This document shows, piece by piece, positions 8,797 to 36,600 of a stretch of DNA of 46,500 nt. This stretch comes from Alloalcanivorax mobilis (GTDB lineage Bacteria > Pseudomonadota > Gammaproteobacteria > Pseudomonadales > Alcanivoracaceae). Each line of letters starts with the position of its first letter. Positions within the stretch are counted from its first letter, which is position 1. The notes under the pieces are model-generated. The model ran no database searches and was not told the DNA's origin. It saw only the letters and a list, made by a program, of their open reading frames with translations. The stretch covers positions 1 through 46,500 of the forward strand of contig NZ_NMQZ01000042.1 in assembly GCF_002864685.1 (NCBI RefSeq), read 5' to 3'. Made by a program: the position numbers and the translations under genes.

Positions 8797-8921
8797 GAGT
8801 TGAACGTTACAAGTTAAAAGTTGAAAGGGCGGCTTCGGTGCGGCGTTTGTGCGTGGACACCGCGATCAATGGGGCTGCCCACTGGGCTCGCGTTTCAACT
8901 TTCAACCTTCAACTTTCAACT
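8797..8921. repeat. Heptad-arm inverted repeat, GTTGAAA family
   Basis: Left arm with AAGTTAAAAGTTGAAAGG and right arm with CTTTCAACCTTCAACTTTC enclose a GC-rich core starting GGGCGGCTTCGG. The right end is 4 bp from the stop codon of the kinase gene. Confidence 0.8.
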
Positions 8922-8925
8922 GGCT

Positions 8926-9981
8926 CTATTTATACGCCCTGGCGATCTGCCAGCCGCGTTCGGCCATCAGGCCGGCGCGTTTGCCCACTTCCAGGGCGTC
9001 GCGGTTGCTGGCGTTGCCCTGCAAGGCGCGGGCGTATACGCCTTGCAGAATGGCGGCGGTGCGGAACAGGGCGAAGGCCAGGTAGACCGGCCAATCGCTG
9101 ATGCCGTCCCGGCCACTGCCGAGGCAATAACGTTCCAGCAGGCTGCGCTCGTCCGGGATGCCGCGCGCCGACAGGTCCAGGCCGTCGAGCCCGCGCACGC
9201 CCTGAATGCCGTGGGGCAAATGAAACGGCAGGCAATAGTAGGCCAGGTCGGCGAGCGGGTGGCCGATGGTGGCCAGCTCCCAATCCAGCACCGCCACTAC
9301 TCGGGCGGAATCCCGTGCCACCAACAAATTGCCCAGCCGGTAGTCGCCGTGGGCGATGGCGGCGGAATCCTCGGCGGGAATGTGCTCTTGCAGCCAGTCG
9401 ATCAGATTGTCCATGGCTGGCAGCTGGTCGGTTTGCGAGGCCTGGTACTGGGCGCTCCAGCGCTTCACCTGACGCGCCACGTAGCCCTGCGGGCGGCCAA
9501 AATCACCGAGGCCGGCGGCCTGATAATCCACCCGGTGGAGCTTCGCCAGGGTGTCGACACTGGAATGGTAGAGATCGGCGCGCTGCTCTTTGGGCAACGC
9601 CTCCAACTGCGGGTGGCTGTAGACCCGGCCGGGCACGAAATCCATTACGTAAAAGCTGGTGCCGACCACGTCCTCGTCGTCGCTGAACAAGCGCATTCGC
9701 GGCACCGGCACGTCGCTGTGCTCGCCGAGCGCCTTCATGACCCGGAATTCGCGGTCCACCTGATGGGCGGAAGGCAGCACCTTGCCCGGCGGCTTCTTGC
9801 GCAGCACGTAACGGCGCTCGCCGCTCTCCAGCAAATAGGTGGGATTGGACTGGCCACCCTGGAATTGCCGCACCTTGAGCGGGCCATCGAGCAGATCTTC
9901 CCGCCCCAGACAGTCCGCCAAACGCCCCTCATCAATGCGGTGCGCCTCCAGAACGGGCACCAGCTCCGGCTGACCTTCCAT
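8926..9981 (-). CDS. Phosphotransferase (APH fold), ACAD10/11-type acyl-CoA kinase homologue
   Basis: APH/choline-kinase-fold protein, 351 aa, related to the N-terminal kinase domain of ACAD10/ACAD11 and to LvaA of levulinate catabolism, which phosphorylate 4-hydroxyacyl-CoA. Seen motifs: G-loop QGGQSNPT at 41-48, lysine region YVLRKKPPG at 58-66, catalytic HGDYRLGN at 211-218 and metal-binding DWE at 233-235. ATG 9981 is chosen over an in-frame GTG at 9996 because GAGG lies 5 nt upstream of it. It follows an SDR on the same strand, and a homologous kinase at 27369-28400 also adjoins an SDR, so a duplicated kinase-SDR module is likely. The substrate is inferred from the family, not shown. It is not an aminoglycoside resistance enzyme by context. 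Confidence 0.85.
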   Translation of the reverse strand: MEGQPELVPVLEAHRIDEGRLADCLGREDLLDGPLKVRQFQGGQSNPTYLLESGERRYVLRKKPPGKVLPSAHQVDREFRVMKALGEHSDVPVPRMRLFSDDEDVVGTSFYVMDFVPGRVYSHPQLEALPKEQRADLYHSSVDTLAKLHRVDYQAAGLGDFGRPQGYVARQVKRWSAQYQASQTDQLPAMDNLIDWLQEHIPAEDSAAIAHGDYRLGNLLVARDSARVVAVLDWELATIGHPLADLAYYCLPFHLPHGIQGVRGLDGLDLSARGIPDERSLLERYCLGSGRDGISDWPVYLAFALFRTAAILQGVYARALQGNASNRDALEVGKRAGLMAERGWQIARAYK

Positions 9982-9995
9982 AAGAACCTCGAACA

Positions 9996-10078
9996 CAAGT
10001 TTAAAGTGGAAAGTTAAAAGTTGAAGGACAGACTGGTCTTTGCCCCTTTCAACTTTTCACTTTCTTCTTTCAACTTTG
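9996..10078. repeat. Heptad-arm inverted repeat, GTTGAAA family
   Basis: Left arm has AAAGTTAAAAGTTGAAGG; right arm has CCTTTCAACTTTTCACTTTC. It fills the gap between the SDR stop (10080) and the kinase start. Confidence 0.8.
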
Positions 10079-10079
10079 T

Positions 10080-10844
10080 TTAACAAATCGTCTCGCCACC
10101 GTCGGCGACGATGGTCTGGCCGGTGACATAGCCACTGGCGGCGCTGGCCAGGAACAGGGCCACGCCGGCGATGTCCACCGGCTCACCGATGCGGCGCACC
10201 GGGGTGCGCTCTTCGGCGCGCTGCCGGCGGACCGGATCGTCGGTCAGTGCCTTGGCGAAATCGGTGCGCACCAGGCCGGGGGCGATGCTGTTGACGCGAA
10301 TGTTGCGCGGGCCCCACTCCACCGCCAGGTTGCGGGCCAGCGCCGCCTCGGCGGCCTTGGACACACCGTAGGCGCCAATCACCGTATTGCCACGCAGACC
10401 GGCGATGCTGGAAATAATGATCACGTTACCGCCGCCGACTTTGTCCATCTCGGGCAGTACCCGGTTGCACAGCCAGAAGGTGCCCTTGGCGTTGGTGTCC
10501 ATGATTTTGTCCCAGGCCTCGTCGGTGAGCTCGGCGGTGGGGCCATAGACCGGGTTGGTGGCGGCGTTGCACACCAGAATGTCGATGCGGCCGAACGCGG
10601 CCAGCGTCTCGTCGACCAGGTTCATCAAATCGTCTTTGTTGCCCACGTTGCAGGGCACGGCGATGGCTTCATGGCCTTCCGCCTTGATCGCCTCGCACAC
10701 TTGGTGACACGGCTCCGGTTTACGGCTGGAAATCACTACCTTGGCGCCGGCGCGGGCCATTTCCTCGGCGATCGCCTTGCCAATACCCTTGGTGGACCCG
10801 GTGATCAATGCCACTTTACCGGTCAGGTCGAAAAGTCTGCTCAT
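10080..10844 (-). CDS. Short-chain dehydrogenase/reductase
   Basis: Classical SDR oxidoreductase, 254 aa, NAD(P)-dependent alcohol/ketone interconversion. ATG 10844 is preceded by AAGGAGA. Cofactor motif TGSTKGIG near 17-24, NAA variant CNAATNP in place of NNAG, catalytic Ser in ISSIAG and YGVSK (Tyr-x3-Lys) near 155-159, C-terminal TGQTIVADGG. A run of A bases precedes the ATG. It resembles the SDR at 26472-27236, which also has NAAANP, and both sit beside APH-fold kinases. A role in handling hydroxy/keto acyl-CoA is inferred. The first-gene position gives an SDR-kinase pair transcribed together. Confidence 0.9.
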   Translation of the reverse strand: MSRLFDLTGKVALITGSTKGIGKAIAEEMARAGAKVVISSRKPEPCHQVCEAIKAEGHEAIAVPCNVGNKDDLMNLVDETLAAFGRIDILVCNAATNPVYGPTAELTDEAWDKIMDTNAKGTFWLCNRVLPEMDKVGGGNVIIISSIAGLRGNTVIGAYGVSKAAEAALARNLAVEWGPRNIRVNSIAPGLVRTDFAKALTDDPVRRQRAEERTPVRRIGEPVDIAGVALFLASAASGYVTGQTIVADGGETIC

Positions 10845-10862
10845 TTTTTTTCTCCTTCGGAG

Positions 10863-10917
10863 AGCGACAAGCTTCAGGCCGAGACCAATCAGCTTGTGGC
10901 TTGTGGCTTGTCGCTGG
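10863..10917. repeat. Heptad-arm inverted repeat, AAGCTAC family (short)
   Basis: AGCGACAAGCTTCAGG on the left and GCTTGTGGCTTGTCGCT on the right, upstream of the SDR start. Short and degenerate compared with the elements at 24537 and 25459. Confidence 0.6.
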
Positions 10918-11060
10918 CTATCGTTTTCCAGAAACGCTGCATCGTAGTAAGGTCGGCGTTGCCGTTGTCGGCAATGCGCATACGACGCGCACGGGCGGAA
11001 CATTACGCCGTGCGAGGGGTCAAGGAATGTGCCATGACCGGCGGGTCGCGTCAATTATCT

Positions 11061-11073
11061 GGAATCCGATTCC
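11061..11073. promoter_or_regulatory. GGAAT-N3-ATTCC palindrome upstream of the SDR-kinase pair
   Basis: GGAATCCGATTCC is a perfect 13-bp palindrome 217 bp upstream of the SDR start. It is the most symmetric member of the set at 5438, 7554, 21720 and 30733. It lies close to the end of the TetR gene, so its effect on the SDR promoter is uncertain. Confidence 0.4.
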
Positions 11074-11103
11074 GCAATTGCGCCGAACCCGCGCGAAGTG
11101 CCG

Positions 11104-11739
11104 TCAGGGGCCGGCGATCGAGGGACAATGAGTCAGCGAGTTGATGTAACAATCGACGAAATTCGCCGCCTCCGCCTGTAAATCAAAGGCCTCGGGCAGC
11201 AACAGCCAGACATACAGCAGGCCGGTCATTTGCACATGCAACTGCACCACGGCGCGCTCGATGTCCAGGGACGCCGGCAACTGCCCCCGGGCAATGGCAT
11301 TGCGGAAGGTGCGCCGGGTGCGCTCGGAGCCGTCCAGGAAGGCCTCTCTCTGACGCTCCATCAGCGGGTCGGTTTCGGCGGTGAATTCGCACTTGTGGAA
11401 CATGATTTCGAACACACGACGGCGCCCCGGATCGAGCACCGTCTGGCACAGCACATAGATCATGGCTTCACGAAACTTTCCCAGCGGGTCGGTTTCATTA
11501 GGGTCTTCGGCCCGATTGGCCATCGATTCCATGGGCAGCCGCTGGCGCTCGAACATGGCAGCGAAGACATCGTGCTTGTTCTTGAAGTGCCAATAGATGG
11601 CACCACGGGTTACGCCAGCCTCTTTGGCGATGTCATTCAGCGAGGTGCGCGATACGCCCTTGTCATGAAAAACGCGCTCGGCGGCGTCGATAATCCGTTC
11701 GCGGGTTTCTTGCGCCTCGGCCTTGGTTCTTCGCACCAT
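11104..11739 (-). CDS. TetR/AcrR-type repressor of the adjacent RND efflux operon
   Basis: Transcriptional repressor, 211 aa, AcrR/TtgR/MexR-like TetR family. The N-terminal helix-turn-helix spans about residues 30-52 (SRTSLNDIAKEAGVTRGAIY) followed by WHFKNKHDVF, the family hallmark. The C-terminal domain is the usual multidrug-binding helical bundle. It is transcribed away from the efflux operon, and the shared 187-bp spacer carries an operator matching the E. coli AcrR box at 22 of 24 positions. Regulation by release of the repressor on ligand binding is expected from the family. Confidence 0.93.
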   Translation of the reverse strand: MVRRTKAEAQETRERIIDAAERVFHDKGVSRTSLNDIAKEAGVTRGAIYWHFKNKHDVFAAMFERQRLPMESMANRAEDPNETDPLGKFREAMIYVLCQTVLDPGRRRVFEIMFHKCEFTAETDPLMERQREAFLDGSERTRRTFRNAIARGQLPASLDIERAVVQLHVQMTGLLYVWLLLPEAFDLQAEAANFVDCYINSLTHCPSIAGP

Positions 11740-11794
11740 AGGCGGCTCCTGTGGAAAAACGGTAGAAATACGGTAACGGCAATGGTTGTTTTAC

Positions 11795-11822
11795 TATACA
11801 TACGTTTCTGAATGTATGTATA
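11795..11822. promoter_or_regulatory. AcrR/TtgR-type operator with divergent promoters
   Basis: Perfect 9-bp arms TATACATAC (11795-11803) and GTATGTATA (11814-11822) around a 10-bp centre. Positions 11797-11820 match the known 24-bp E. coli AcrR box except at two central bases. A plus-strand -10-like TATACT (11819-11824) and a minus-strand TATAGT (11793-11798) flank it, so a bound repressor would block both promoters. Confidence 0.85.
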
Positions 11823-11926
11823 CTGATTTATTCTCGTTCGCTGGCCGCCGAGGGTACCGGCCCCGCCCTTTTCAGGGTCCGCCAGACGTTATTAACCCAT
11901 TGATACTAAAGAAGACCGAGGTCTCC

Positions 11927-13192
11927 ATGCGCACAGGTTCGGTTCGTTTCCCACTGATGATACTGATGATGACGGCCCTGGCGGCCTGCGGCAAAGAGCA
12001 ACCCCAGGCGGGCGCTGGCGGTGCCCCCGAAGCCGGCTTTATCACCGTCAAGGCGGAGCCCTTCACTCTGGTCACCGAATTGCCCGGGCGCACCACCGCC
12101 CACCAGATCGCCGAGGTCCGGCCGCAAGTCAACGGCATTATCGAGGAGCGCTTGTTCAAGGAAGGCGAGGAAGTGAAAGCCGGCGAGGCGCTCTACAAAA
12201 TCGACGACAGCCTTTATAAGTCCGATCTGGAAAGCGCCAAGGCCAACCTGGCCTCGGCCCAGGCAACGCTCAAGTCGGTGAAATTGCGCGCTGAACGCTT
12301 CGGCAAACTGATCAAGAGCAACGCGGTCAGCCAGCAGGAAGTGGACGAAGCGCAAGCCGCCTACGGTGAAAGCCGCGCCCAGGTGCAAGCCGCCCAGGCC
12401 GCCGTGGACACCGCCCGCATCAACCTCGGCTACACCACCATCAAGGCGCCGATCAATGGCCGCATTGGCCGTTCCGCGGTCACCGCCGGGGCGCTGGTCA
12501 CCGCCAATCAGTCGGTGGCGCTGTCCACGATTCGCGAGCTGGACCCCATCTACGTGGATCTGACCCAGTCGTTCAGTACCTTGCGCGAACTGCGCTCGGC
12601 GATGGAAGCCGGCAAGCTGCAAAAACTCGGCGACGACAAAGCCCGAGTGACCCTGGTGATGGAAGACGGCACCGAGTACAAACAGCCCGGCAGCCTGCAG
12701 TTTTCCGAGTATTCAGTGGACGAAACCACCGGCTCGGTGACCTTACGGGCGTTGTTCCCGAACCCGGATGGCGATCTGCTGCCCGGCCAGTTCGTGCGCG
12801 CCCGCCTGCCGCAGGGCGAACGCCAGAACGCCATTCTGGTGCCGCAGAAAGGCATCACCCGCGAGCCCAGTGGTGATGCGTCGGCGCTGGTGATCGGCGC
12901 GGACAACAAGGTCGAGAAGCGGCAGGTCACCACCGAACGGACGGTGGGCAATCAATGGCTGGTCAGCGACGGTTTGAACGCCGGCGACAAGCTGATCGTG
13001 GACGGTTTACAGAAACTCGCCCCCGGCGCGCAGGTGAAACCGGTGCAAATGGACGAAGAGAAAGTTACCGCGCCCAAGGGCGAGCCCAAGGACGCCGAAG
13101 GCGAAGATGTGGCCCCCGAGGACGCGCAACAAAACGGTAACGGCCAATCTCAACAGGGCGCGCAGTCCGGTGCCGGTAACGGCGCGGCGTAA
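11927..13192 (+). CDS. RND efflux periplasmic adaptor (membrane fusion) lipoprotein, AcrA/TtgA/MexA family
   Basis: Adaptor linking the inner-membrane pump to the outer-membrane channel, 421 aa. ATG 11927 has GAGG upstream and gives a lipoprotein signal with lipobox LAAC (Cys21). Lipoyl half-motifs ([19 protein letters not shown] and [16 protein letters not shown]) flank an alpha-helical hairpin at about 100-170. The C-terminal 50 residues form a Gly/Gln/Glu-rich low-complexity tail not usual in AcrA. First gene of the tripartite operon, under the AcrR-type operator. Longer upstream readings cross the operator and were not used. Confidence 0.93.
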
Positions 13193-13203
13193 CGGGGAGC
13201 ATC

Positions 13204-16200
13204 ATGGCCAATTTTTTTATTGATCGACCGATCTTCGCCTGGGTGATCGCCATCGTCATGATGATGGCGGGCGCGCTGGCTATCCAGAGTCTGCCGGTAG
13301 AGCAATACCCCACCGTGGCGCCGCCGGAGGTGACCATCCAGGCCACCTACCCGGGCGCCTCCGCGAAAGCGGTGGAAGACTCGGTCACCCAGGTGATCGA
13401 GCAACAAATGAACGGCATCGACAACCTGCTCTATATCAATTCAAAGAGCGACTCCTCCGGCACCGCGCAGATCATCTTGACCTTCGCAGCCGGTACCGAT
13501 CCGGATATTGCCCAGGTACAGGTGCAGAACAAGCTGCAACTGGCCACCCCGCGCCTGCCCTCGGTGGTGCAACAACAGGGCGTGGAGGTGTCCAAATCGT
13601 CGGACACCTTCCTGATGGTGCTGGCGTTCACCTCCAAGGACGGCACCATGTCGCGGGCGGATCTCGCCGATTACGTGGCCGCCAACGTCCAGGACCCGAT
13701 CAGCCGGGTGCAGGGCGTGGGCCAGGTACAATTGTTTGGTGCCCCCTATGCCATGCGCATATGGCTGGATTCCCACAAGCTCACCGAATTCGGGCTGACA
13801 CCGCTGGATGTGTCGCAAGCGATTCAGGTGCAGAACAATCAGATTACCGGCGGCCAGCTGGGCGGCACCCCGGCGGTGGCCGGCCAGCAGTTGAGCGCCT
13901 CGATCGTGGTGCAGACGTTGCTGGAGACTCCGGAAGAGTTCGGCAATATTCTGCTGCGCGTCAATGAGGACGGCTCCAAGGTGCGGGTTCGCGACGTCGC
14001 CAAGGTGGAGTTGGGCGCGGAAAACTACGCCATCGAGGGGCGCTTTAACGGCAGACCCGCCGGCGGCCTGGGCATCAACCTGGCAGCCGGCGCCAACGCG
14101 CTGGACACCGCCGACGCGGTGCGCGCGCGCATCTCCGAGCTGGAAAAATTCTTCCCCGACAATCTGGAAGTGGTGCAATACCCCTACGACACCACGCCGT
14201 TCGTGAAGATTTCCATTGAGGAAGTGGTGCACACCCTGATCGAGGCGATCATCCTGGTGTTCCTGGTGATGTATCTGTTCCTGCAGAACTTCCGCGCCAC
14301 CTTGATCCCCACCCTGGCGGTGCCGGTGGTGTTGCTGGGGACCTTTGGCATCCTGTTCGCCTGCGGCTATTCGATCAACACCCTGACCATGTTCGGCCTG
14401 GTGCTGGCCATCGGCCTGCTGGTGGACGACGCCATCGTGGTGGTGGAAAACGTGGAACGGGTGATGGAGGAAGAAGGCCTCGGGCCCCGCGAGGCAACGC
14501 GTAAATCCATGGGCCAGATCACCGGCGCGTTGGTGGGTATCGCCCTGGTGCTCTCGGCGGTGTTCGTGCCGATGGCGTTCTTCCCCGGTTCCACCGGTGC
14601 CATCTATCGCCAGTTCTCGATCACCATTGTGTCCGCCATGGCGCTGTCGGTGCTGGTTGCGCTGATCCTGACGCCGGCGCTGTGCGCCAGCCTGCTGAAA
14701 AAGTCCGACGCCGATCACGGCGGCGACAAGAAAGGCTTCTTCGGCTGGTTCAACCGCTCTTTCAACAAAGCCAGTGATCGCTACCAGGGCCGGGTGGAAA
14801 AAATTCTCGGCCAGCGTGGCCGCCATATCTTTATCTACGTGGTGATCGTCGGCGTTCTGGTGTTTGCGTTCATGCGGTTGCCGGCGGCGTTCCTGCCCGA
14901 TGAGGATCAGGGCATTCTGCTCAACCAGGTGCAGTTGCCGGTGGGTTCCACCCAGGAACAGACCATCGAAGTGCTGAAAAAGATGGAGCACTACTACCTG
15001 GAAGAAGAGAAAGGCGTGGTGCAGTCCATGTTCGCGGTCGCCGGCTTCAGCTTCGCCGGGCGCGGCCAGAACTCAGGGATCGCGTTCGTGCGGCTTAAGC
15101 CGTGGGAAGATCGTGACCTCAGCCAGGACGGCGTGCAGCAGATCATTGGCCGTGCCATGGGCTATTTCTCCACGGTGCGCGAAGGCATTATTTACGCGCT
15201 CAACCCGCCCGCCATTCCGGCGCTGGGCGTGGCCAGCGGCTTTAACTTCCAGCTTCAGGACCGAAGCGGCCTTGGTCACCAGGCGCTGGTGGACGCCAGC
15301 AACAAGCTGGTCGGCATGGCCAACCAGGACCCGGCGCTCAGCCAGGTGCGCTTCAATGGCTTGCCCGACGCGCCCCAGTACCGGGTCGAGGTGGATCAGC
15401 AGAAAGCGCAGGCCATGGGGCTCAGCATTGAGGATATCAACCGTACCCTGTCGGTGGCCTGGGGCTCGAGCTACGTGAACGACTTCCTCGATCGCGGCCG
15501 GGTCAAACGGGTGTATCTGCAGTCGCAGGCGTCGGATCGCATGCTGCCTGAAGACATCGATGACTGGTACGTGCGCAACAGCGCCGGCGAGATGGTGCCG
15601 TTCTCGAGTTTCGCGGAAGGCAAATGGGATTACGGCGCCCAACAGTTGGAGCGTTACCAGGGCGTCTCGTCGATGAACATCCAGGGCAACGCCGCCGAAG
15701 GCTACAGCACCGGTGACGCCATGGACGCCATGGCCCGGCTGGCCGGCGAGCTGCCCACTGGCATGGGGTTCGAATGGACCGGGCTGTCCTATCAGGAGCA
15801 GGAAGCCGGCAACCAGTCCACGGCGTTGTATATCCTGTCGCTGATCGTGGTGTTCCTGTGTCTTGCTGCTCTTTATGAGAGCTGGTCGATCCCGTTCTCG
15901 GTGATGCTGGTGGTGCCGCTGGGTGTGATCGGCGCGGTGCTGGCCGCCAACTTCCGCGGGCTCGATAACGACGTGTTCTTCAAGGTCGGCCTGCTGACCA
16001 CCGTCGGGCTATCGGCGAAGAACGCGATCCTGATCGTGGAATTCGCCAAGGACCTGGAAGACGAGGGCTATTCGTTGCTGCGCGGCACGCTGGAGGCGGT
16101 GCGCATGCGATTGCGCCCGATTCTGATGACCTCGCTGGCGTTCATGCTCGGCGTGACCCCGCTGATGCTGAGCACCGGCGCCGGCTCCGGCGCGCGCAAC

Positions 16201-16368
16201 GCGATCGGCACCGGGGTGTTCGGCGGCATGCTCACCGCCACGGTACTGGCGATCTTCTTTATTCCGCTGTTCTACGTGCTGGTGCGCCGCATTTCCGGCG
16301 TGCCGCTGGGCGAGCGCCACCAAGGCCCGGCGCAAGCCAACGACAGCCATTCCGGGGAGAATCAATGA
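13204..16368 (+). CDS. RND multidrug efflux transporter, AcrB/TtgB/MexB (HAE1) family
   Basis: Inner-membrane proton-driven drug pump, 1054 aa, full length. Begins [20 protein letters not shown] (TM1). The proton-relay Asp pair is in [14 protein letters not shown] near 405-415 and the Lys in [16 protein letters not shown] near residue 939. Two large periplasmic loops and 12 expected membrane segments match HAE1 pumps. Starts 12 bp after the adaptor stop with GGGGAGC upstream and overlaps the channel gene by 4 bp (ATGA). Likely exports solvents, drugs or hydrophobic catabolic intermediates; exact substrates are not readable. Confidence 0.96.
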
Positions 16369-17822: not shown

Positions 17823-17844
17823 GGCGCTGAACGTCGGGGGGGCG

Positions 17845-17968
17845 GACGCCAGACGCTAAAATCAAAACCGTCGCTGGCGGGCCTGCTCCTACCAACCATC
17901 GCTACGAAGCAGCCCGTTCCCTATTCCCGCCCACCCCACTGAACACTGAAAACTGAACACTGAAAACT
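17845..17968. repeat. Composite heptad element (GACGCTG-type plus GAACACT-type)
   Basis: GGACGCCAGACGCT (17851-17861 region) is followed by AAAATCAAAACCG and, at 17941-17968, four exact heptads GAACACT, GAAAACT, GAACACT, GAAAACT. The same components occur in reverse orientation at 46317-46412. The element fills most of the 273-bp gap after the efflux operon; I see no gene there. Confidence 0.7.
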
Positions 17969-23456: not shown

Positions 23457-23462
23457 CAGGGA

Positions 23463-23560
23463 AAATTGAAAGTTAAAAGTTGAAAGTTAAAGGCGGCTCC
23501 GTTGCGACGACATAGCTACCGGGCCGCCCCTTTTGACTTGCAACTTTCAACTTGCAACTG
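23463..23560. repeat. Heptad-arm inverted repeat, GTTGAAA family
   Basis: Left arm GTTAAAAGTTGAAAGTTAAA, core beginning GGCGGCTCCG and ending GGGCCGCCCC, right arm CTTGCAACTTTCAACTTGCA. It spans the gap between two convergent stops, 6 bp after 23456 and 5 bp before 23566. Confidence 0.85.
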
Positions 23561-23565
23561 CTTTT

Positions 23566-24536: not shown

Positions 24537-24638
24537 GCTTGAAGCTACAAGCTCCAAGCTTCAAGCTACAAGCTACAAGCTACAAGGCGGCGCTGTAGCT
24601 TGGAGCTTGTAGCTTGTCGCTGTTGTAGCTTGTCGCTG
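24537..24638. repeat. Heptad-arm inverted repeat, AAGCTAC family
   Basis: The left arm has six consecutive 7-bp units: AAGCTAC, AAGCTCC, AAGCTTC, AAGCTAC, AAGCTAC, AAGCTAC. A GGCGGCG core follows, and the right arm repeats GTAGCTT/GTCGCT units. The right end abuts the SDR stop codon at 24639. Confidence 0.9.
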
Positions 24639-25458: not shown

Positions 25459-25545
25459 AGCGGCAAGCTACAGGCTACAAGCCCCAAGCCCCAAGCCAGA
25501 TCAACGCACGGCCGGCCTGTCGCTTGTAGCTTGCAGCTTGTCGCT
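25459..25545. repeat. Heptad-arm inverted repeat, AAGCTAC family
   Basis: Left arm GGCAAGCTACAGGCTACAAG with further CCAAGCC units; right arm CGCTTGTAGCTTGCAGCTTG. The end overlaps the SDR stop codon at 25544-25546. Confidence 0.85.
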
Positions 25546-26390: not shown

Positions 26391-26467
26391 AGAGTTGAAA
26401 GGAGAAAGTTAAAAGTTGAAGCGGCCACGTGACCGCCCTTTAACTTTTAACTTTTAACCTTCAACTC
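26391..26467. repeat. Heptad-arm inverted repeat, GTTGAAA family
   Basis: Left arm GAAAGTTAAAAGTTGAAG, palindrome-like core GCGGCCACGTGACCGCC, right arm TTTAACTTTTAACTTTTAAC. It ends 4 bp from the next stop codon (26472). Confidence 0.9.
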
Positions 26468-26471
26468 GCCG

Positions 26472-27236: not shown

Positions 27237-27251
27237 TGACACTCTCCAAAA

Positions 27252-27363
27252 CAAGTTCAAGGTTGAAAGTTAAAAGTTGAAACGCAGGCGAGTTCGTGCC
27301 ACTCGGCAGACGTATCGCCCGCGCTTCTTTGCTTTCAACTTTTCACTTTTAACTTTTCACTTC
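27252..27363. repeat. Heptad-arm inverted repeat, GTTGAAA family
   Basis: Left arm GGTTGAAAGTTAAAAGTTGA, right arm CTTTCAACTTTTCACTTTTA with further AACTTTTCAC units. It ends 5 bp before the kinase stop codon (27369). Confidence 0.85.
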
Positions 27364-27368
27364 TCGTC

Positions 27369-28400: not shown

Positions 28401-28420
28401 GGGTTAAACCTCCTTGAAAC

Positions 28421-28534
28421 GAAAGTTGAAAGTGACAAGTTAAAAGTTAAAACGCGCGCACACGGTTGAGGATGCATCCTCAACCGTGTGCGCGCTTTGG
28501 TTTTCTTGCAACTTTTAACTTTTAACTTTCAACG
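28421..28534. repeat. Heptad-arm inverted repeat with a perfect 42-bp central palindrome
   Basis: Arms are GTTGAAA, GTGACAA, GTTAAAA, GTTAAAA on the left and their complement on the right. The core 28454-28495 is a perfect 42-bp palindrome centred on ATGCAT, flanked by GCGCGCACACGG. The whole can fold into one long cruciform or hairpin. The end lies 4 bp from the stop of the acyl-CoA dehydrogenase gene. Confidence 0.92.
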
Positions 28535-28538
28535 GGTT

Positions 28539-29747: not shown

Positions 29748-29802
29748 CTTATTCTCCCTTGAGGGAACCGGGTTCCCAGTCTGTCAGCAATGTGTGGGTC
29801 GA

Positions 29803-30480
29803 TTAACTGTAGGTAATGGCGTCCAAGCGGTCGTCGCGCTCCAGGTGTGGCACCTGGTTGAACACCGAAAGACGGTAGACGTGTTGGTTGAAGAACCCCT
29901 GCGTCACGCTGGAGTTGCGAATTTGCAGGTTCAACTCGACAACGGTGTCGTCGGCGGTATTGAGCATGTGGCGCATCCACATGGCGATGGCACCGCCGGA
30001 ACTGACCACCAGCACCCGCTCGCGGCCGGCGTGCCGCTGGCGAATGTGCTCCATGGCGGCGGCGACCCGGTCGCAAAAGTCGCGCCAGCTTTCTGGCAGG
30101 TTGCCCTGCAGCTGATCCCGGCGCCAGCTCTGCATGGCGCTTTTCAGAACCCGGTAAAACGCCGCCACCGGCGCGCCGGCGGGCGGTGCCTGATCCGGGT
30201 AAGCGCTCAGATAAGCGTCCACGATGGAGTGAAAATGGAATTCGTTGAGGCCGGGGTGCAGCTCCGCCTTGAGACTGGAGCCCAGGCCCTCCTGGATGCC
30301 CGCCCCGGTTTCCACGTGGCGCACCAGATCGCCGGTCACCAGCGCATCGAAGGTCAGCCCCCGCTCACGGTAATGTTCACCCAGCCAGCGCGCCTGCTGG
30401 TGGCCCAACTGCGAAAGCTTGTCGTAGTTGGCGGCCCCGAAGGAAGCCTGACCGTGGCGAATAAGATAAAACTGCCCCAT
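29803..30480 (-). CDS. Histidine phosphatase family protein
   Basis: 225 aa, phosphoglycerate mutase/acid phosphatase-like fold. Start ATG 30480 gives FYLIRHGQASFG, the RHG catalytic motif, near residues 4-15; a reading to 30534 adds 18 residues. Second catalytic His is in VLVVSSGGAIAMWM region, where SSGG replaces the usual SHGG. If that alignment is right, the second His is missing and activity may be altered. It lies 55 bp upstream of the acyl-CoA dehydrogenase gene on the same strand. Could dephosphorylate intermediates of the kinase route; this is speculative. Confidence 0.85.
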   Translation of the reverse strand: MGQFYLIRHGQASFGAANYDKLSQLGHQQARWLGEHYRERGLTFDALVTGDLVRHVETGAGIQEGLGSSLKAELHPGLNEFHFHSIVDAYLSAYPDQAPPAGAPVAAFYRVLKSAMQSWRRDQLQGNLPESWRDFCDRVAAAMEHIRQRHAGRERVLVVSSGGAIAMWMRHMLNTADDTVVELNLQIRNSSVTQGFFNQHVYRLSVFNQVPHLERDDRLDAITYS

Positions 30481-30647
30481 GCCGTTCTCATTACTGGCGA
30501 AATCGATGCAGGACAGCCTAGAGCACCCACCCAAGTTAGTGAAATTGATATTCTGAATCCCGAACTATGCACGGCATTTATGAAGAAGGGGCCGGGAAAT
30601 AACCGTAGGCCTTACCGGGACGGGTGCTTGCGCGTCGTCGATGGGAC

Positions 30648-30720
30648 AGGCTTCAGGCTTCCAGCTACAAGCCAAACCGTGCTGCGGAGCCGCCCTTGCC
30701 GCTTGAAGCTTGCAGCCGCT
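30648..30720. repeat. Heptad-arm inverted repeat, AAGCTAC family (degenerate)
   Basis: CAGGCTTCAGGCTTCCAGCT and ACAAGCC on the left, core GCTGCGGAGCCGCCC, right arm GCCGCTTGAAGCTTGCAGCC. The core resembles those at 31586 and 35452. Confidence 0.75.
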
Positions 30721-30732
30721 CTCCTTTATTTC

Positions 30733-30745
30733 GAAACCCGATTCC
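30733..30745. promoter_or_regulatory. GGAAT-N3-GTTTC motif upstream of the enoyl-CoA isomerase/hydratase
   Basis: The minus strand reads GGAATCGGGTTTC, 53 bp upstream of the plus-strand gene. Matches the sites at 7554 and 21720. Candidate IclR-family operator. Confidence 0.45.
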
Positions 30746-30798
30746 GATATTTTCGATCACCTTGATAACAATCCGAAATCCGGCACGGGGAGAAAACG

Positions 30799-31572
30799 AT
30801 GAGTGAACTGGACCTGAAAAGCGGCTTTATCCGCGTTACCGAGCACGGCAAGTTGCTGGAAGCGACCCTCGACCGGGCCGATAAGCTGAACGCGCTGACC
30901 CTGGAGATGTATCGCGATCTGAGCCGGGTGGTGGACCATTTCCAGGCCCGCGACGACCTGACCGCCCTGCTGATCGATGGCGAGGGCCGCTCGTTCACGG
31001 CCGGCAACGACCTCAAGGATTTCCGCAACGCCGACCCGAAAACCCGCGAGAACGGCAAGCTGAGCCCGGCGATGGACTTCGTGTTCCGCTTACGGGCGTT
31101 GGATAAGCCGGTGATCATGGCGGTGCACGGCAACGCCACCGGCATCGGCACCACCATGCTGCTGCACTGCGACCTGGTGATCGCCGCGGAGAACACCCGC
31201 TTCTACACCGCGTTCATCAATCTGGGCCTGGTGCCGGAAGCCGGTTCCAGCTTTTTGCTGCAAACGCTGGTCGGCCGGCAAAACGCCAACCGGCTGCTGC
31301 TCGCCGGCGATACCCTGAGCGCCGAGGAAGCCGAGCGCATGGGCCTGGTCGCTTATCGGGTGGCCGACGATCAATTGCGTGAAAAAGCGCTGGAACTGGG
31401 CCAGACCCTGGCCGCCAAACCGCCCCAGGCGATCGCTTACACCAAGCAACTGATGCGCCTCCACGACGACGCGGTGAAAGCGCAGATCGAAGCGGAATCG
31501 AAACGCTTCGCCGAGCGCATGTTCAGCGATGAAGTGCGGGCGATTTTTGATAAGTTTTTGAATAAGAAATAA
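30799..31572 (+). CDS. Enoyl-CoA hydratase/isomerase family protein (isomerase-like)
   Basis: 257 aa crotonase-fold protein. Oxyanion-hole motif FTAGNDLKDF near 70-79; second half HGNATGIGTTMLLHCDLVIAA near 110-130. The position of the first catalytic Glu of true hydratases (GGGxE) is Thr here (GIGTT), while the second Glu is kept in LVPEAGSS near residue 150. This pattern is that of delta3,delta2-enoyl-CoA isomerases (ECI2-like). GGGGAGA precedes ATG 30799. Supports entry of unsaturated acyl-CoAs into beta-oxidation. Hydratase in the cluster is then more likely the MaoC protein at 34981. Confidence 0.88.
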   Translation: MSELDLKSGFIRVTEHGKLLEATLDRADKLNALTLEMYRDLSRVVDHFQARDDLTALLIDGEGRSFTAGNDLKDFRNADPKTRENGKLSPAMDFVFRLRALDKPVIMAVHGNATGIGTTMLLHCDLVIAAENTRFYTAFINLGLVPEAGSSFLLQTLVGRQNANRLLLAGDTLSAEEAERMGLVAYRVADDQLREKALELGQTLAAKPPQAIAYTKQLMRLHDDAVKAQIEAESKRFAERMFSDEVRAIFDKFLNKK

Positions 31573-31585
31573 ACACGCGGAACAA

Positions 31586-31670
31586 AGCGAGGCTACAAGC
31601 CACAAGCTACAAGCCAAACAGCGCTACGTAGCCGCCCTTGCCGCTTGAAGCTTGCAGCTTGTAGCCGCTT
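31586..31670. repeat. Heptad-arm inverted repeat, AAGCTAC family
   Basis: Left arm GGCTACAAGCCACAAGCTAC, core GCGCTACGTAGCCGCCC, right arm CCGCTTGAAGCTTGCAGCTT with GTAGCCGC. It lies in the convergent gap after the stop at 31572. Confidence 0.85.
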
Positions 31671-31687
31671 ATCACCGACGGCATGGC

Positions 31688-32320
31688 CTACGCTGTTCCC
31701 TTCACCACGCCGCGCAGGGCAACGTGCACCACGTCCTCGACGATGTCCTGGCGGGCGCCAGGGTGGTCTTCGTAGCGGATGTGGTACCAGTTGATCACCG
31801 AGTTGAGGGCGCCGAGCATCGGTTTAATCACGATGCGCGGCCGCTCGGCGTGCATTGAACCTTCAGCGATGCCCTCTTCGAGCACGCCAAGAAACACGTC
31901 CTCGTAACGCCGGCGGCGGTTTTGCAGGCGGGTGAGCTGGGCACGCTGAGCGGCGGTGGTGTTGATGCGCAGGTGCATTTGCACCCCTTCGGCCACGGCG
32001 CGCTGGAAATGCTGGGTCTCGATCAGGGTGTGCACATGGCAAAGCGACATGCGGGTTAGCCGCTCCAGGGCCGGCGCCAGACGCCGGCACTCCGGCTCCA
32101 CGGTGGCGAACAGGGCGTCCATGCCGCGCTGGTGAATCTGGAAAAACAACTCCGCCTTGGAGTCGAAGTAGTGGTAGACCATGCCCTTGGTGGCGCCAAG
32201 CTGACGGGCGATGTCGTCGATGCTGGTGGCTTTGAAGCCCCGCTCCATGAAACAGCGCGCCGCCGCGTCGAGGATCACCTCACGGGGTTCGGCTGGCGGC
32301 GCCACCTTTACTTGCTCCAT
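31688..32320 (-). CDS. TetR-family transcriptional regulator
   Basis: 210 aa from ATG 32320; a reading to 32365 adds 15 residues. Helix-turn-helix near residues 27-48 (TSIDDIARQLGATKGMVYHY) followed by FDSKAELFFQIH. The C-terminal ligand domain has no recognisable specificity; general shape fits regulators of fatty acid or aromatic catabolism. It is divergent from the paired acyl-CoA dehydrogenase operon, and a palindromic GAAA-N5-TTTC site (32565-32577) lies in the shared 318-bp spacer, so autoregulation and control of that operon are likely. Confidence 0.9.
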   Translation of the reverse strand: MEQVKVAPPAEPREVILDAAARCFMERGFKATSIDDIARQLGATKGMVYHYFDSKAELFFQIHQRGMDALFATVEPECRRLAPALERLTRMSLCHVHTLIETQHFQRAVAEGVQMHLRINTTAAQRAQLTRLQNRRRRYEDVFLGVLEEGIAEGSMHAERPRIVIKPMLGALNSVINWYHIRYEDHPGARQDIVEDVVHVALRGVVKGTA

Positions 32321-32638
32321 CAAAGATCCTCGAATCCCGGCCCGGCAATGGCCAATAAATTGCACCGATCGTGGTCGATTTCGCGCCCTCGGCGCGACGC
32401 TGCGAATGCGGCTTTTTCAACCCGGAATTGTGACAGCCGCCCGCGCCAAAGCCATTGACCGATTGTGCCTCGAAGTGGGGCGTTGATGACACAACTGCCG
32501 CTAACCATGCCGCTTTTCACACTGGACGCCCCGGCGGGTGGCCAACATACTTGCCGCATTAAATGAAAGTCTATTTCAATAACAGCCTGCTGGCCGGATG
32601 CCCCAACCCCGGCCCGGCGGGGTGCCGAGGAGGTAATA
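32321..32638. other. Divergent spacer between TetR and the dehydrogenase operon
   Basis: 318 bp without a gene. The only element I can place is the palindrome at 32565-32577, about 60 bp upstream of the dehydrogenase ATG. Confidence 0.55.
32565..32577. promoter_or_regulatory. GAAA-N5-TTTC palindrome upstream of the paired dehydrogenase operon
   Basis: Reads GAAAGTCTATTTC within TGAAA-N5-TTTCA. Same 13-bp spacing as the GGAAT-N3-RTTYC set, but less similar. It may instead be the operator of the divergent TetR regulator. Confidence 0.4.
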
Positions 32639-33823
32639 ATGTCGGATCTTGAACAGTTCCGCGCCGAAGCCCGGGAGTGGTTGCAAGCCAACTGCCCCGA
32701 GGAAATGCGCCAGCCGCTGAAAAGCCAGGCGGATCATTGCTGGGGTGGCCGCAAATGGAAATTCCAGTCCGAAGCCCAGAAGGTGTGGATGGAGCGGATG
32801 GCCGAAAAAGGCTGGACCGCCCCGCAGTGGCCGAAAGAGTACGGCGGCGGCGGGTTGAGCCCGGAACAAGGCGAAATCCTCAACGAAGAGATGCAGCGCA
32901 TCAACGCCCGTACCCCGGTGAGCAACTTCGGTTTCTGGATGCTCGGCCCGGCGCTGCTGAAATTCGGCAGTGAAGAACTGAAACGCGAGCACTTGCCGCC
33001 GATTTGCCGTGGCGAGATCCGCTGGTGCCAGGGTTATTCCGAGCCGAACGCCGGTTCCGACCTGGCCAGCCTGCAAACCCGCGCCGAGGACAAAGGCGAC
33101 CATTTCCTGGTCAACGGCCAGAAGATCTGGACTTCGTATGCGGACAAAGCCGACTGGATCTTCTGTCTGGTGCGCACCGACCCCAGCGCCACCAAGCACA
33201 ACGGCATCTCCTTCGCCCTGTTCGACATGGACACCCCGGGTGTCACCACCCGCCCGATTGAGCTGATTTCCGGTGAGTCGCCGTTCTGCGAGACCTTCTT
33301 TGACGACGTCAAAGTGCCCAAGCACCAGGTGGTCGGCGAGCTGAACCGTGGCTGGGACGTGGCCAAGTATCTGCTTACCCATGAGCGCAACAACATCGGC
33401 GGCCAGCCCCCGGGTTACCTGCGCGGCCGGGCCCTGGGCCCGCTGGCCGCCGAGCACGTCGGCACCGAACACGGCAAACTGGCGGACGCCGCCCTGCGCG
33501 CCGACATCGCCAATCTCGAGATCGACAACCTGGCGTTCCAGGCTTTGCTCGGCAAGATCCGCGCCGAAGCGGAAGCCGGCCAGGGCGTGGGCGCCCAGTC
33601 CGCGGTGCTCAAATATTACGGCACCGAGCTCAACAAGCGCCGCTACGAACTGATGATGGACGCGATGGGCGCCGAAGGTTTGGAGTGGCAGAGCGAACGC
33701 ACCCGTGGCGGCATGTTCGCCCGCGAATGGTTGCGCTCCAAAGGCAACTCCATCGAAGGCGGCACCTCCGAAGTGATGCTCGGCATCGTCTCCAAACGCC
33801 TGCTTGGCCTGCCAGACGCTTAA
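32639..33823 (+). CDS. Acyl-CoA dehydrogenase, catalytic (alpha) subunit type
   Basis: 394 aa FAD-dependent dehydrogenase. FAD/substrate motif QGYSEPNAGSDLASLQTRAE near 131-150, FLVNGQKIWTSYADKAD near 157-173, and the C-terminal catalytic Glu motif NSIEGGTSEVMLG near 370-382. GGAGG lies upstream of ATG 32639. Followed 13 bp later by a second, shorter dehydrogenase that lacks a catalytic Glu motif. Such neighbour pairs in actinobacterial and proteobacterial steroid and side-chain catabolism form alpha2beta2 enzymes, so a heteromer is likely. First gene of a five-gene beta-oxidation operon. Confidence 0.92.
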   Translation: MSDLEQFRAEAREWLQANCPEEMRQPLKSQADHCWGGRKWKFQSEAQKVWMERMAEKGWTAPQWPKEYGGGGLSPEQGEILNEEMQRINARTPVSNFGFWMLGPALLKFGSEELKREHLPPICRGEIRWCQGYSEPNAGSDLASLQTRAEDKGDHFLVNGQKIWTSYADKADWIFCLVRTDPSATKHNGISFALFDMDTPGVTTRPIELISGESPFCETFFDDVKVPKHQVVGELNRGWDVAKYLLTHERNNIGGQPPGYLRGRALGPLAAEHVGTEHGKLADAALRADIANLEIDNLAFQALLGKIRAEAEAGQGVGAQSAVLKYYGTELNKRRYELMMDAMGAEGLEWQSERTRGGMFAREWLRSKGNSIEGGTSEVMLGIVSKRLLGLPDA

Positions 33824-33836
33824 GGAGTCCTGGATT

Positions 33837-34922
33837 ATGAAACTCAACGACGAACAACAGATGCTGCAGGACTCCGTGGCGCGGCTGATGGCCGACAAGG
33901 GCCCGGTGTCCCGCCTGCGCGAACTGCGCGACAGCAACAACGAAAAGGGCTATGACGAGCCGCTCTGGAACGCCATGGTGGAAGCCGGCCTGACCGGCAT
34001 TGTGGTGCCCGAAGAGCACGGCGGTATTGGTTTTGGTCTGGTTGGCGCCGGTCTGGTGGCGCGCGAGATCGGCCGCAACCTGTCGGTGACGCCGTTCTTC
34101 TCGACCTCGGTATTGGCCGCCACCGCGCTGGCCACCGGCGGCAGCGACGAGCAGCGGCAACAGTGGCTGCCGAAGATCGCCGAGGGCAGCGCCATCGTCG
34201 CCCTGGCCGTGGATGAAGGCGCCAAGCACCGCCCGGACAACCTGAAAGCGACCGTCGAAGGCGGCACGCTCAATGGCGACAAAGTGCTGGTGCTGGACGG
34301 CCACGTCGCCGATCTGTTGCTGGTGGCCGCCGGCCAGGGAGACCAGGCGGCACTGTATCTGGTCGACCCGAAAGCCGAGGGCGTGAGCATCGAGCGCACG
34401 GTGATGGCGGACAACCGCAATGCCGCCCGGATCAGCTTCAAGAATGTGGCCGCCGAGCCGATGGCGAACGGCACCGGCGCTCTGCAAGCCGCCCTGCGCG
34501 CCGGCCGCGCGGTGCTCGCCGCGGAACTTTCCGGGCTGTCCAAGGAAGTGTTTGAGCGTACCCTGGGCTACCTGAAAGAGCGCAAGCAGTTCGGTCGCCT
34601 GATCGGCACGTTTCAGGCGCTGCAGCACCGCGCCGCGCAGCTCTCCGCCGACGTGGCGATGAGCGAAGCGCTGGCTCTGCAAGCCCTGGACGCCTGCGAT
34701 GGCAACGCCGACGACGCCGACATACAGGTGTTCGCCGCCAAGGCCAAGGCGGCCCGCGTGGCGCTGCTGGCCGGCCAGGAAGGGGTGCAGATGCACGGTG
34801 GCATCGGCATGACCGATGAATTCGACATCGGCTTCTTCCTCAAGCGCGCTCGCGCTGGCGGTGAAACCCTGGGCGACGCCAACTACTGCGCCGACCGCTT
34901 CGCCACCCTGGGCGGTTATTGA
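33837..34922 (+). CDS. Acyl-CoA dehydrogenase, non-catalytic (beta) subunit type
   Basis: 361 aa. Recognisable as an acyl-CoA dehydrogenase by VPEEHGGIGFG near 50-60, LKERKQFGRLIGTFQALQHR near 245-264 and VQMHGGIGMTDEFDIG near 316-331. The N-terminal half is weakly conserved and the C-terminus stops at RFATLGGY without the YEG(T)/IEGGT motif that carries the catalytic base. ATG 33837 has AAGGAG upstream; a reading to 33804 overlaps the previous gene. Best read as the partner subunit of the preceding dehydrogenase. Confidence 0.9.
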   Translation: MKLNDEQQMLQDSVARLMADKGPVSRLRELRDSNNEKGYDEPLWNAMVEAGLTGIVVPEEHGGIGFGLVGAGLVAREIGRNLSVTPFFSTSVLAATALATGGSDEQRQQWLPKIAEGSAIVALAVDEGAKHRPDNLKATVEGGTLNGDKVLVLDGHVADLLLVAAGQGDQAALYLVDPKAEGVSIERTVMADNRNAARISFKNVAAEPMANGTGALQAALRAGRAVLAAELSGLSKEVFERTLGYLKERKQFGRLIGTFQALQHRAAQLSADVAMSEALALQALDACDGNADDADIQVFAAKAKAARVALLAGQEGVQMHGGIGMTDEFDIGFFLKRARAGGETLGDANYCADRFATLGGY

Positions 34923-34940
34923 TCCGCTTCGTTTCATTGT

Positions 34941-34967
34941 TCAGGGGGCGGCCCCGCCGCCCCCTGA
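34941..34967 (+). promoter_or_regulatory. Strong intercistronic hairpin
   Basis: Perfect 12-bp GC-rich arms TCAGGGGGCGGC and GCCGCCCCCTGA with a CCC loop, between the dehydrogenase beta gene and the MaoC gene. No T-run follows, so it is more likely an mRNA processing or stability element than a terminator. Confidence 0.6.
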
Positions 34968-34980
34968 CCGGGAGAACAGC

Positions 34981-35448
34981 ATGACAAGAAAAACCATCGC
35001 CCTGGACGATCTGCTGGCCAAACAGGGCCAGGACATTGGCGTTTCCGGCTGGCACGAAGTGCCGCAGGAGCGCATCAACGAATTCGCCGATCTCACCGCC
35101 GACCCGCAGTGGATTCACATCGACGAAGCGCGCGCCGCCAAAGAAAGCCCGTTCGGCGGCACCATCGCCCACGGCTTTCTGACGCTGTCGTTGCTGTCGG
35201 CCATGGCCATCGACGTGTTGCCGACCATCGAAGGTCAGGCCATGGGCATCAACTACGGTTTCGACAAAGTGCGCTTTCTCAACCCGGTGCGCGCCGGCTC
35301 GAAAGTCCGTGGTCACTTCAAGCTGCTCAGCGCCGAACGCCGCAACGACAACCAGGTGCTGTTCCGTTACGGCATCACCGTGGAGATCGACGGCGTCGAT
35401 AAGCCGGCTATTGCTTGTGAGTGGCTGAGCCTGGCGATTCTGGGATAA
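34981..35448 (+). CDS. MaoC-family (R)-specific enoyl-CoA hydratase
   Basis: 155 aa hotdog-fold hydratase. Catalytic region FADLTADPQWIHID near 36-49 holds the conserved Asp and His of the hydratase-2 motif, followed by FGGTIAHGFLTLSLL near 58-72. NodN-like length and C-terminal half (GINYGFDKVRFLNPVRAGSKVRG). ATG 34981 has GGGAGAA upstream; longer readings overlap the preceding gene. Hydrates the enoyl-CoA made by the dehydrogenase pair to the 3-hydroxyacyl-CoA used by the SDR that follows. Confidence 0.93.
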   Translation: MTRKTIALDDLLAKQGQDIGVSGWHEVPQERINEFADLTADPQWIHIDEARAAKESPFGGTIAHGFLTLSLLSAMAIDVLPTIEGQAMGINYGFDKVRFLNPVRAGSKVRGHFKLLSAERRNDNQVLFRYGITVEIDGVDKPAIACEWLSLAILG

Positions 35449-35451
35449 CAG

Positions 35452-35517
35452 CGAGTTAAAAGTTAAAAGGGCGGCTACGTAGCCGCCTTCAACTTTTAAC
35501 TTGTCACTTTCAACTCT
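35452..35517. repeat. Heptad-arm inverted repeat, GTTGAAA family, canonical core
   Basis: Left arm GAGTTAAAAGTTAAAAG, core GGCGGCTACGTAGCCGCC (perfect 18-bp palindrome), right arm TTCAACTTTTAACTTGTCAC. It begins 4 bp after the MaoC stop and lies 14 bp before the next start, so the transcript of this operon must pass through it. Confidence 0.92.
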
Positions 35518-35531
35518 CCAAAGGAGAGATT

Positions 35532-36458
35532 ATGAGCATCAATTTCGATGGCCGCGTGGCGATCGTGACTGGCGCCGGCAACGGGCTGGGTAAATCCCAC
35601 GCCGTGGAGCTGGCCCGGTTGGGCGCCAAGGTGGTGGTCAACGACTTCGGCGGTGCCCGCGATGGCAGCGGCGGCTCCAGTGAGGCCGCGGAGAAGGTGG
35701 TGGCGGAGATCATCGCCGCCGGTGGCGAGGCAATCGCCGATGGCGCCGATGTGTCCAACCGCGAGCAGGTCAACGCTCTGGTCAAGACCACTGTGGACAA
35801 ATGGGGCCGCATCGACATCCTGGTCAACAACGCCGGTATCCTGCGCGACAAAAGCTTCGTTAAGATGAGCGACGACGACTGGGACAAGGTGGTCGCCGTT
35901 CATCTGACCGGTTCCGCCCTTTGCAGCCACGCGGTGTGGCCAGTAATGCGCGAGCAGGGCTATGGCCGCATCGTGATGACCACTTCCACCTCGGGCCTGT
36001 ACGGCAATTTCGGCCAGGCCAATTACGGCGCCGCGAAAATGGCGGTGGCCGGTTTGATGAATACCCTTCACATCGAAGGCGAAAAGTACGACATCCGGGT
36101 AAACTGTGTGGCGCCAACCGCCGCCACGCGCATGACCGAGGACCTGATGCCCAAGGAAGTGCTGGCCCTGCTGGAACCTGGTGAAATCACCCCGGCGGTG
36201 CTGTTTCTGGCCAGTGATCAGGCGCCCTCGCGGCGCATTATCCTGGCCGGCGCCGGTTGTTATGCCATGGTTCGACTGATGGAAAGCGAAGGCATCTATC
36301 TGGATCGTGATCAGCGCACTCCGGACGCCATCGCGGCTCAGTTCGAGCAGCTCGGCGACATGAGCAACGCCCGTGAAATGCTCACCGGCGGTGACCATGT
36401 CACCAAAATCCTGACCAAGGCCGCGCAGGCCAAAGGTATCAAGTTAGGGGGACGCTAG
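35532..36458 (+). CDS. SDR-family 3-hydroxyacyl-CoA dehydrogenase (MFE2-like)
   Basis: 308 aa, resembling the N-terminal dehydrogenase domain of peroxisomal MFE-2 (HSD17B4). TGAGNGLGKSHAVELARLG near 12-30 and VVNDFGGARDG near 36-46 are typical of this group; NNAGILRDKSF near 97-107, catalytic Ser in TTSTSGLYGNFGQ, and YGAAK near 165-169. The C-terminal 70 residues extend beyond a classical SDR. GGAGAG precedes the ATG. Follows MaoC hydratase, giving hydration then oxidation, and precedes the thiolase. Confidence 0.92.
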   Translation: MSINFDGRVAIVTGAGNGLGKSHAVELARLGAKVVVNDFGGARDGSGGSSEAAEKVVAEIIAAGGEAIADGADVSNREQVNALVKTTVDKWGRIDILVNNAGILRDKSFVKMSDDDWDKVVAVHLTGSALCSHAVWPVMREQGYGRIVMTTSTSGLYGNFGQANYGAAKMAVAGLMNTLHIEGEKYDIRVNCVAPTAATRMTEDLMPKEVLALLEPGEITPAVLFLASDQAPSRRIILAGAGCYAMVRLMESEGIYLDRDQRTPDAIAAQFEQLGDMSNAREMLTGGDHVTKILTKAAQAKGIKLGGR

Positions 36459-36600
36459 ACGCTGGACGCCAGACGCTGGACGCTTCAACCCTGCCCTGAG
36501 GTGAATGGCGTGTTTTTCTGTCCGACTGTCGCAGGAAACACACCTGACCTTCCCGGCTACAGATTTTGCGTCCGGCGTCCGGCGTCGAGCGTCAAGCGCT
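36451..36600. repeat. Heptad-arm inverted repeat, GACGCTG family
   Basis: Left units GACGCTA, GACGCTG, GACGCCA, GACGCTG, GACGCTT (36451-36485) overlap the SDR stop. Right arm GCGTCCGGCGTCCGGCGTCG (36569-36588). A short inner inverted repeat GTGTTTTTCTG/CAGGAAACAC lies between. Confidence 0.85.

Follow-up and report, generated by a model that had tools for sequence, protein, structure and literature searches.

What are the intergenic palindromes that punctuate this stretch of the Alloalcanivorax mobilis genome (46,500 nt, hereafter the window), and why are their arms built from units of exactly 7 bp? A preliminary description reported around sixteen elements, each with two inverted arms of tandem 7-bp units surrounding a shared GC-rich core, in at least four sequence families. 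The periodicity of the arms survives a formal self-match scan: counting runs with at least 17 of 21 self-matches at periods 3 to 24, we find 16 runs at period 7 in the window versus 5 at period 14, 2 at period 3, single runs at periods 6, 16, and 21, and none at the other periods, and no period-7 run appears in three order-3 Markov shuffles of the window. The host genome is a 4.10-Mb draft, of which we analyzed a first sample of 446.5 kb and a larger one of 846.5 kb. The former contains 56 period-7 runs versus at most 5 at any period that is not a multiple of 7, and the latter, scanned at periods 3 to 14, contains 88 period-7 arrays versus at most 8 elsewhere, with period 14 set aside. The elements of the window, none of which has a strand assigned, are as follows.

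8797..8921: family A (GTTRAAA), two arms; 4 nt separate its right edge from the stop of the minus-strand gene 8926-9981
9997..10077: family A, two arms; right edge adjoins the stop of the minus-strand gene 10080-10844
10863..10917: family B (AAGCNNC), left arm weak, right arm clear; lies before a start, an exception, with the nearest upstream stop 185 nt away
17937..17968: family D (ACTGAAC), single array; a C-like fragment at about 17843-17866 is closer to the stop
23460..23561: family A, two arms; fills a convergent spacer, leaving 3 and 4 nt to the two stops
24537..24624: family B, two arms; 14 nt from a stop
25459..25545: family B, two arms; touches the stop of the gene at 25544
26391..26467: family A, two arms; 5 nt from a stop
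27253..27363: family A, two arms; relatives have B, a REP dyad, A with a different core, or neither at this junction
28421..28535: family A, two arms, with a 42-nt perfect core hairpin; common to three other species
30648..30719: family B, left arm degenerate
31589..31666: family B, two arms; in a convergent spacer, with 17 and 21 nt to the stops
35453..35516: family A, two arms enclosing a core that is a perfect hairpin; follows the stop at 35448
36450..36600: family C (GACGCYR), two arms with a C1 core; overlaps the called stop at 36458
46313..46413: hybrid of a left D array and a right C-type arm

Two arms are present at all seven sites ascribed to family A, including 35452, which our automatic cluster finder overlooked, and at the family C site at 36451. 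For family B they are clear at 24537, 25459, and 31586, with a weak left arm at 10863 and 30648. Family D is weaker than proposed, 17941 being a lone array next to a C-like fragment and 46317 a D array combined with a C-type right arm. It is borne out that unit length stays constant while the unit sequences differ entirely, so that several unrelated families form one architectural class.

The four main unit families of the host (A, GTTRAAA; B, AAGCNNC; C, GACGCYR; D, TTCAGTG/ACTGAAC) place fixed positions next to one to three variable ones, the fixed first letters being partly an artifact of how the units were picked. Transitions are the most frequent kind of variant in A, B, and C. Relatives carry additional 7-bp units, namely, ACAGGAT, TTCACTG, ACTCGAA, and ATTAATA-like and GAGCTAT-like sequences. 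That a 7-mer might supply stops in all frames (7 = 1 mod 3) was rejected on sequence inspection, as B units and most C units are free of stops in the sense arm. Two-arm elements measure approximately 60 to 210 nt. In the 37 found in the 446.5-kb sample, the arms average 4.9 and 5.3 units, or about five, and the lengths of the two arms are uncorrelated (r = -0.02, n = 37 elements); in one extreme case (L077:7274), one arm holds 11 perfect units and its partner few. Unit-by-unit matching of the two arms, considered as evidence for structure, failed a within-family permutation test: arms match no better than within-family shuffles, the observed score being reached by 413 of 500 permutations in A, 397 of 500 in B, and 28 of 500 in C. 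The elements have one polarity, with the same strand of the unit forming the left arm in 45 elements of the 846.5-kb sample, the reverse in none, and 7 unclear (35 of 37 in the first sample).

The claim of a common GC-rich core did not hold. Cores are often GC-rich and palindromic, yet they differ both between and within families, with median lengths of 56 nt in A (n = 12), 13 nt in B (n = 7), and 79 nt in C (n = 17), and among the families compared only C conserves its core over many loci. Among the best 30 of 103 pairs, many C pairs and at least one A pair are similar over at least 150 nt, core included and on either strand.

This conserved core is seen in C1, a dispersed family of at least 40 copies (table count, 40 of 155 candidates scored). 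Of 30 loci entered for alignment, 21 were distinct by genome position; 3 of these had no element call and 2 more no extractable core, leaving 16 aligned copies. In these 16, the heptads and the blocks AAACCC/GGGTTT and GTGTTT-CTG/CAG-AAACAC are nearly invariant, and the stretches between the complementary blocks vary strongly, as does the loop. Double changes affect just 2 of 37 pairs of the C1 consensus, with a covariation term of +1.17 (no shuffle control), and this scarcity points to conservation of sequence rather than compensation. Among the 18 C1 loci with an element call, a stop is no more than 15 nt away in 12, and the flanking genes are divergent in 4.

Stop-codon anchoring is a feature that the preliminary description does not contain. 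Genes were called with a simple custom gene finder, whose stops are more reliable than its starts. Of 76 elements placed in the 846.5 kb, 68 are in spacers (41 tandem, 22 convergent, and 5 divergent), 3 are inside called genes, and 5 are at the ends of stretches. In tandem spacers, 33 of 41 elements are no more than 15 nt away from the upstream stop, a number reached in 0 of 20,000 simulations of uniform placement, which predicts 12.1. Where at least 100 nt of free spacer is available, this is still true of 9 of 17 (1.1 expected). Between convergent genes, both edges are within 24 nt of both stops in 14 of 22 cases; a rule that elements always sit snugly between convergent stops (10 of 10 in the first sample) was dropped on this larger count. 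Among spacers of at least 60 nt, 20 of the 59 convergent ones contain an element, as do 41 of the 226 tandem ones and 5 of the 113 divergent ones (Fisher test, convergent versus divergent, 5e-7).

The elements are predicted to fold strongly. Against dinucleotide shuffles, the mean z score of 33 two-arm elements is -6.7 in A (11 elements), -4.7 in B (7), -9.7 in C (14), and -7.2 in D (1). The fold is no stronger on the strand of the upstream gene (12 of 21, p = 0.30), and because both strands fold equally well, folding does not discriminate between a role in RNA and one in DNA. For the element at 28421, a consensus over four species contains 44 pairs, 5 of them with a double change (no shuffle control). 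No match reaches the Rfam gathering score in the window. At the level of spacers, U-tract terminators accompany elements in 15 of 38 tandem spacers versus 37 of 173 tandem spacers lacking them (p = 0.023), a higher share that fits with transcript ends. In convergent spacers, the share with such terminators is not significantly lower when an element is present (6 of 20 versus 15 of 31, p = 0.25). The idea that heptads replace U-tract terminators, hinted at by a small sample (convergent, 2 of 10 versus 9 of 15), was abandoned on these larger counts, the tandem spacers pointing in the opposite direction.

What occupies the same junction in related genomes was compared for 13 junctions, using the host and as many as 12 genomes of the genus, in which four query genes show 77 to 88% DNA identity. 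The content of several junctions depends on the genome and can be one heptad family or another, a REP-type dyad, a plain hairpin, or nothing; the slot classifier used here labels some ACAGGAT heptads as hairpins. At the junction g26472/g27369, family A is found in 3 genomes, B and a REP dyad in one genome each, and none in 8, and in 2 of the 3 genomes with family A the core is unrelated to that of the host. Among the genomes scored as none at this junction, four have only 30 to 34 nt there, and two (143 to 144 nt) show a GC-rich hairpin by eye. The convergent junction g30799/g31688 holds B in the host, ACAGGAT heptads in 2 genomes, a REP-type palindrome in 7, and none in 3. At the convergent junction L028 6405/7223, a palindrome is present in all 8 genomes that keep both neighbors (5 of 13 lack that pairing), and a long hairpin common to L102 and L105, both of which the classifier labels REP, has changed on both sides together as judged by eye. 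Many junctions are empty in relatives, g25544/g26472 scoring none in 9 of 13 genomes, and at two operon-type junctions no palindrome is scored in any of 13 genomes each, one of these showing short inverted repeats. As for a MITE-like origin, occupied and empty junctions were read by eye, the relatives being too diverged for insertion junctions to be called. The exchange of unrelated versions at one junction suggests that shape at mRNA ends may outweigh sequence.

Sixty stretches (1.01 Mb) were scanned from 59 genomes of the class, a hand-picked set with many large genomes, relatives from the order, and one genome with family A matches. Period-7 arrays occur in 5 of these genomes, and paired arrays at a stop occur only in L127 (genome G194, the one chosen for its matches) and in L180 (genome G249, with two arms of different units). 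The family A pattern is found in 7 of 369 class genomes, host included, and the family C pattern in 18 of 46 genomes of the taxonomic family. Within the genus, the C-pattern counts are 598 in the host, 491 in G380, 100 in G373, zero in G371, G375, G376, and G378, and 1 to 12 in the other five. Among named loci, 7 of 11 of Alcanivorax type carry elements, compared to 0 of 8 others.

Cyanobacterial STRR are heptad tandem repeats, and by that description alone the host elements are like them. Also among the closest known systems are the Xanthomonas GGGAATC and Nostoc GGGGAYT repeats, which the relevant sections of Rehm et al. 2015 (PMC4692102) describe as intergenic tandem 7-mers with a fixed strand relative to genes; GGGAATC-type heptamers lie mostly behind stop codons, near gene 3' ends, and rarely between divergent genes, and two Xanthomonas genomes contain 70 and 75 close inverted pairs of GGGAATC arrays. 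The same sections relay, second hand, the idea that 7 nt equals the contact size of a polymerase. The host elements share with the Xanthomonas inverted heptads the pairing of inverted 7-mer arrays near stops. They differ in that the single G-rich unit is read there as a G-quadruplex former, whereas the host units have no G-tracts, and multiple unit families, conserved cores, and exchange with REPs are not reported in those sections. The proposed unfamiliarity of the architecture therefore holds with respect to REPs as defined, not with respect to Xanthomonas, where a single-family case is published (PMC4692102). Nor are the elements copies of that published family, since none of the host units is GGGAATC and a pattern of three GGGAATC units matches none of 340 class genomes, host included (it is uncertain whether this set has Xanthomonas members). 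The Beggiatoaceae TAACTGA repeats, likewise abundant intergenic 7-mer arrays, differ in being direct and on the start side: as described in the sections concerned of MacGregor 2015 (PMC4679880), they lie mostly just upstream of start codons, with one inverted case in 170 sets.

REPs, according to the parts of Di Nocera et al. 2013 (PMC3733652) that define them, are palindromes of 20 to 40 bp in species-specific families that adjoin the 3' ends of upstream genes, usually lie within 20 bp of both gene ends when between convergent genes, and have a proposed RNA role; they bear a GTAG or CGTC tetranucleotide tag, and GTAG REPs flank RAYT genes. The heptad elements also adjoin the 3' ends of upstream genes; unlike REPs they span about 60 to 210 nt and have tandem 7-mer arms. 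By inspection, no GTAG or CGTC tag stands outside the stem: right arms of B contain GTAG and arms of C contain CGTC inside the stem units, and the units of A and D contain neither. Of 15 stretches around Y1 (RAYT) genes from 5 genomes, a heptad array is present in 1 (a single family D array 118 nt upstream), and REP-like pairs stand on both sides of the Y1 gene in 4. The elements are not GTAG/CGTC REPs. Mobilization by RAYTs was rejected, as Y1 gene counts (2 to 5 per genome) do not track C-pattern counts, and the copying agent is probably not the resident REP transposase. Literature searches returned no published account of several heptad-armed palindrome families. As far as these searches reach, what is new is the presence of many heptad families within a single bacterial family, of a dispersed family that has a core of its own, and of exchange with REP-type palindromes at orthologous stops.

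Our preferred reading, with a probability of roughly 0.5, is that the elements are REP-like palindromes of gene 3' ends, dispersed and exchangeable, which lengthen their arms by slippage of 7 nt and act mainly as RNA hairpins. Each is a noncoding palindrome with two arms of 7-bp units, inverted in a fixed orientation around a family-specific core. Once transcribed, it would fold, immediately behind the stop codon, into a long hairpin that may mark or protect the end of the mRNA, and would do so on either strand where genes converge, with shape kept rather than sequence. The arms would lengthen and homogenize by slippage in steps of 7 nt, each arm separately; slippage is the most plausible reason for the persistence of heptads, given the uncorrelated arm lengths and the one-sided run of perfect units at L077:7274. 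A 3'-end RNA hairpin is the best reading because it joins the anchoring to stops, the strong predicted folds, and the swapping of unrelated palindromes at one slot. The data show where the elements lie, that they keep one polarity, that C1 is dispersed, and that palindromes are exchanged; from these we infer that the elements are transcribed, fold in the cell, and affect termination or decay. Against it stand the empty junctions of relatives, the absent arm-by-arm match, the scarcity of compensatory change in C1, the equal folds on both strands, the rarity of U-tract terminators within elements, the convergent spacers with elements that are no poorer in such terminators to a significant degree, the 5 elements between divergent genes, and the 3 inside called genes.

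The same empty junctions and missing arm-by-arm covariation are what would be expected if slippage and copying made palindromes widely and selection purged them except behind stops, where they harm neither frames nor promoters and have no RNA function. The range of C-motif counts within one genus (0 to 598) and the scarcity of elements in divergent spacers also favor such tolerated junk, which we nevertheless consider rather unlikely: the preference for stops persists where there is ample room, the core at 28421 shows double changes, C1 conserves complementary blocks, and some junctions, such as L028 6405/7223, are always palindromic.

A role at the DNA level, by cruciform extrusion or by binding of a protein (gyrase, a nucleoid protein, or a transposase) that acts on supercoiling between transcription units, agrees with equal folding on both strands, with the conservation of C1 sequence beyond pairing, and with the elements between convergent genes, where positive supercoils meet. 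We regard it as improbable, as unrelated units in one slot argue against a single sequence-specific binder and tandem junctions lie as near to stops as convergent ones. Ordinary bidirectional intrinsic terminators with incidentally heptad-repetitive stems are very improbable as a general account, because, although 28421 and L018:17461 hold textbook hairpins with U-tracts and family A right arms are U-rich, only 4 of 33 two-arm elements pass a test for a GC-rich hairpin plus U-tract (strict and homemade, and thus apt to miss weak terminators) and B and C units yield no U-tract, so that the elements are mostly not U-tract terminators.

A broader and doubtful proposal is that bacterial 3' ends would be interchangeable slots for whichever palindrome lineage is active. 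Heptad-armed palindromes would be a general architecture that recurs from unrelated sequence because 7 nt is privileged in some cellular machine, be it the step of replication slippage or the register of a protein or polymerase, and would be used as sequence-independent transcript boundaries. REPs and heptamer repeats have so far been described apart, and here they occupy the same stop-codon slots, as plain hairpins also do, and substitute for one another between species. It can thus be tested whether any particular sequence is required at a 3' end or just a hairpin, and why the tandem repeats of some bacteria favor 7.

At the left end of the window (1-452), a 127-bp unit is present in 3.6 copies as an array, and the unit carries REP-type dyads (TGTGGGAGCGGTC...GACCGCTCCCACA), palindromes of a different kind from the heptad elements. 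Further copies are present within the window:

7830-7891, further copy
38034-38108, further copy

Among the spacers compared between same-genus genomes, junction L014 10644/12045 holds a distinct long palindrome (GGTCCCGGACCGTAGCTGGCCAGGGATGGCC...) in three genomes (L094, L095, and L098). At junction g24639/g25544, a CGCTTGCA-like unit with a period of 8 is found in L070, L072, and L075, the host slot being occupied by period-7 arms.

We also observe composite arrangements of heptad units. Two of these are nested: in L025 (4266-4434), a B pair (AAGCNNC) encloses an A array (GTTRAAA), and in L069 (11492-11725) a B arm adjoins an ACAGGAT pair, built from a further 7-bp unit. In the distant genome of the same class, G249, approximately 18 copies of GGTGAAA are followed by a second array of a different 7-mer, positioned at a stop codon (L180:1375-1609). 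Finally, the element at 46313-46413 of the window is a hybrid, its C-type right arm (GACGCYR) being partnered by a D array (TTCAGTG/ACTGAAC), which may be a trace of recombination between families.
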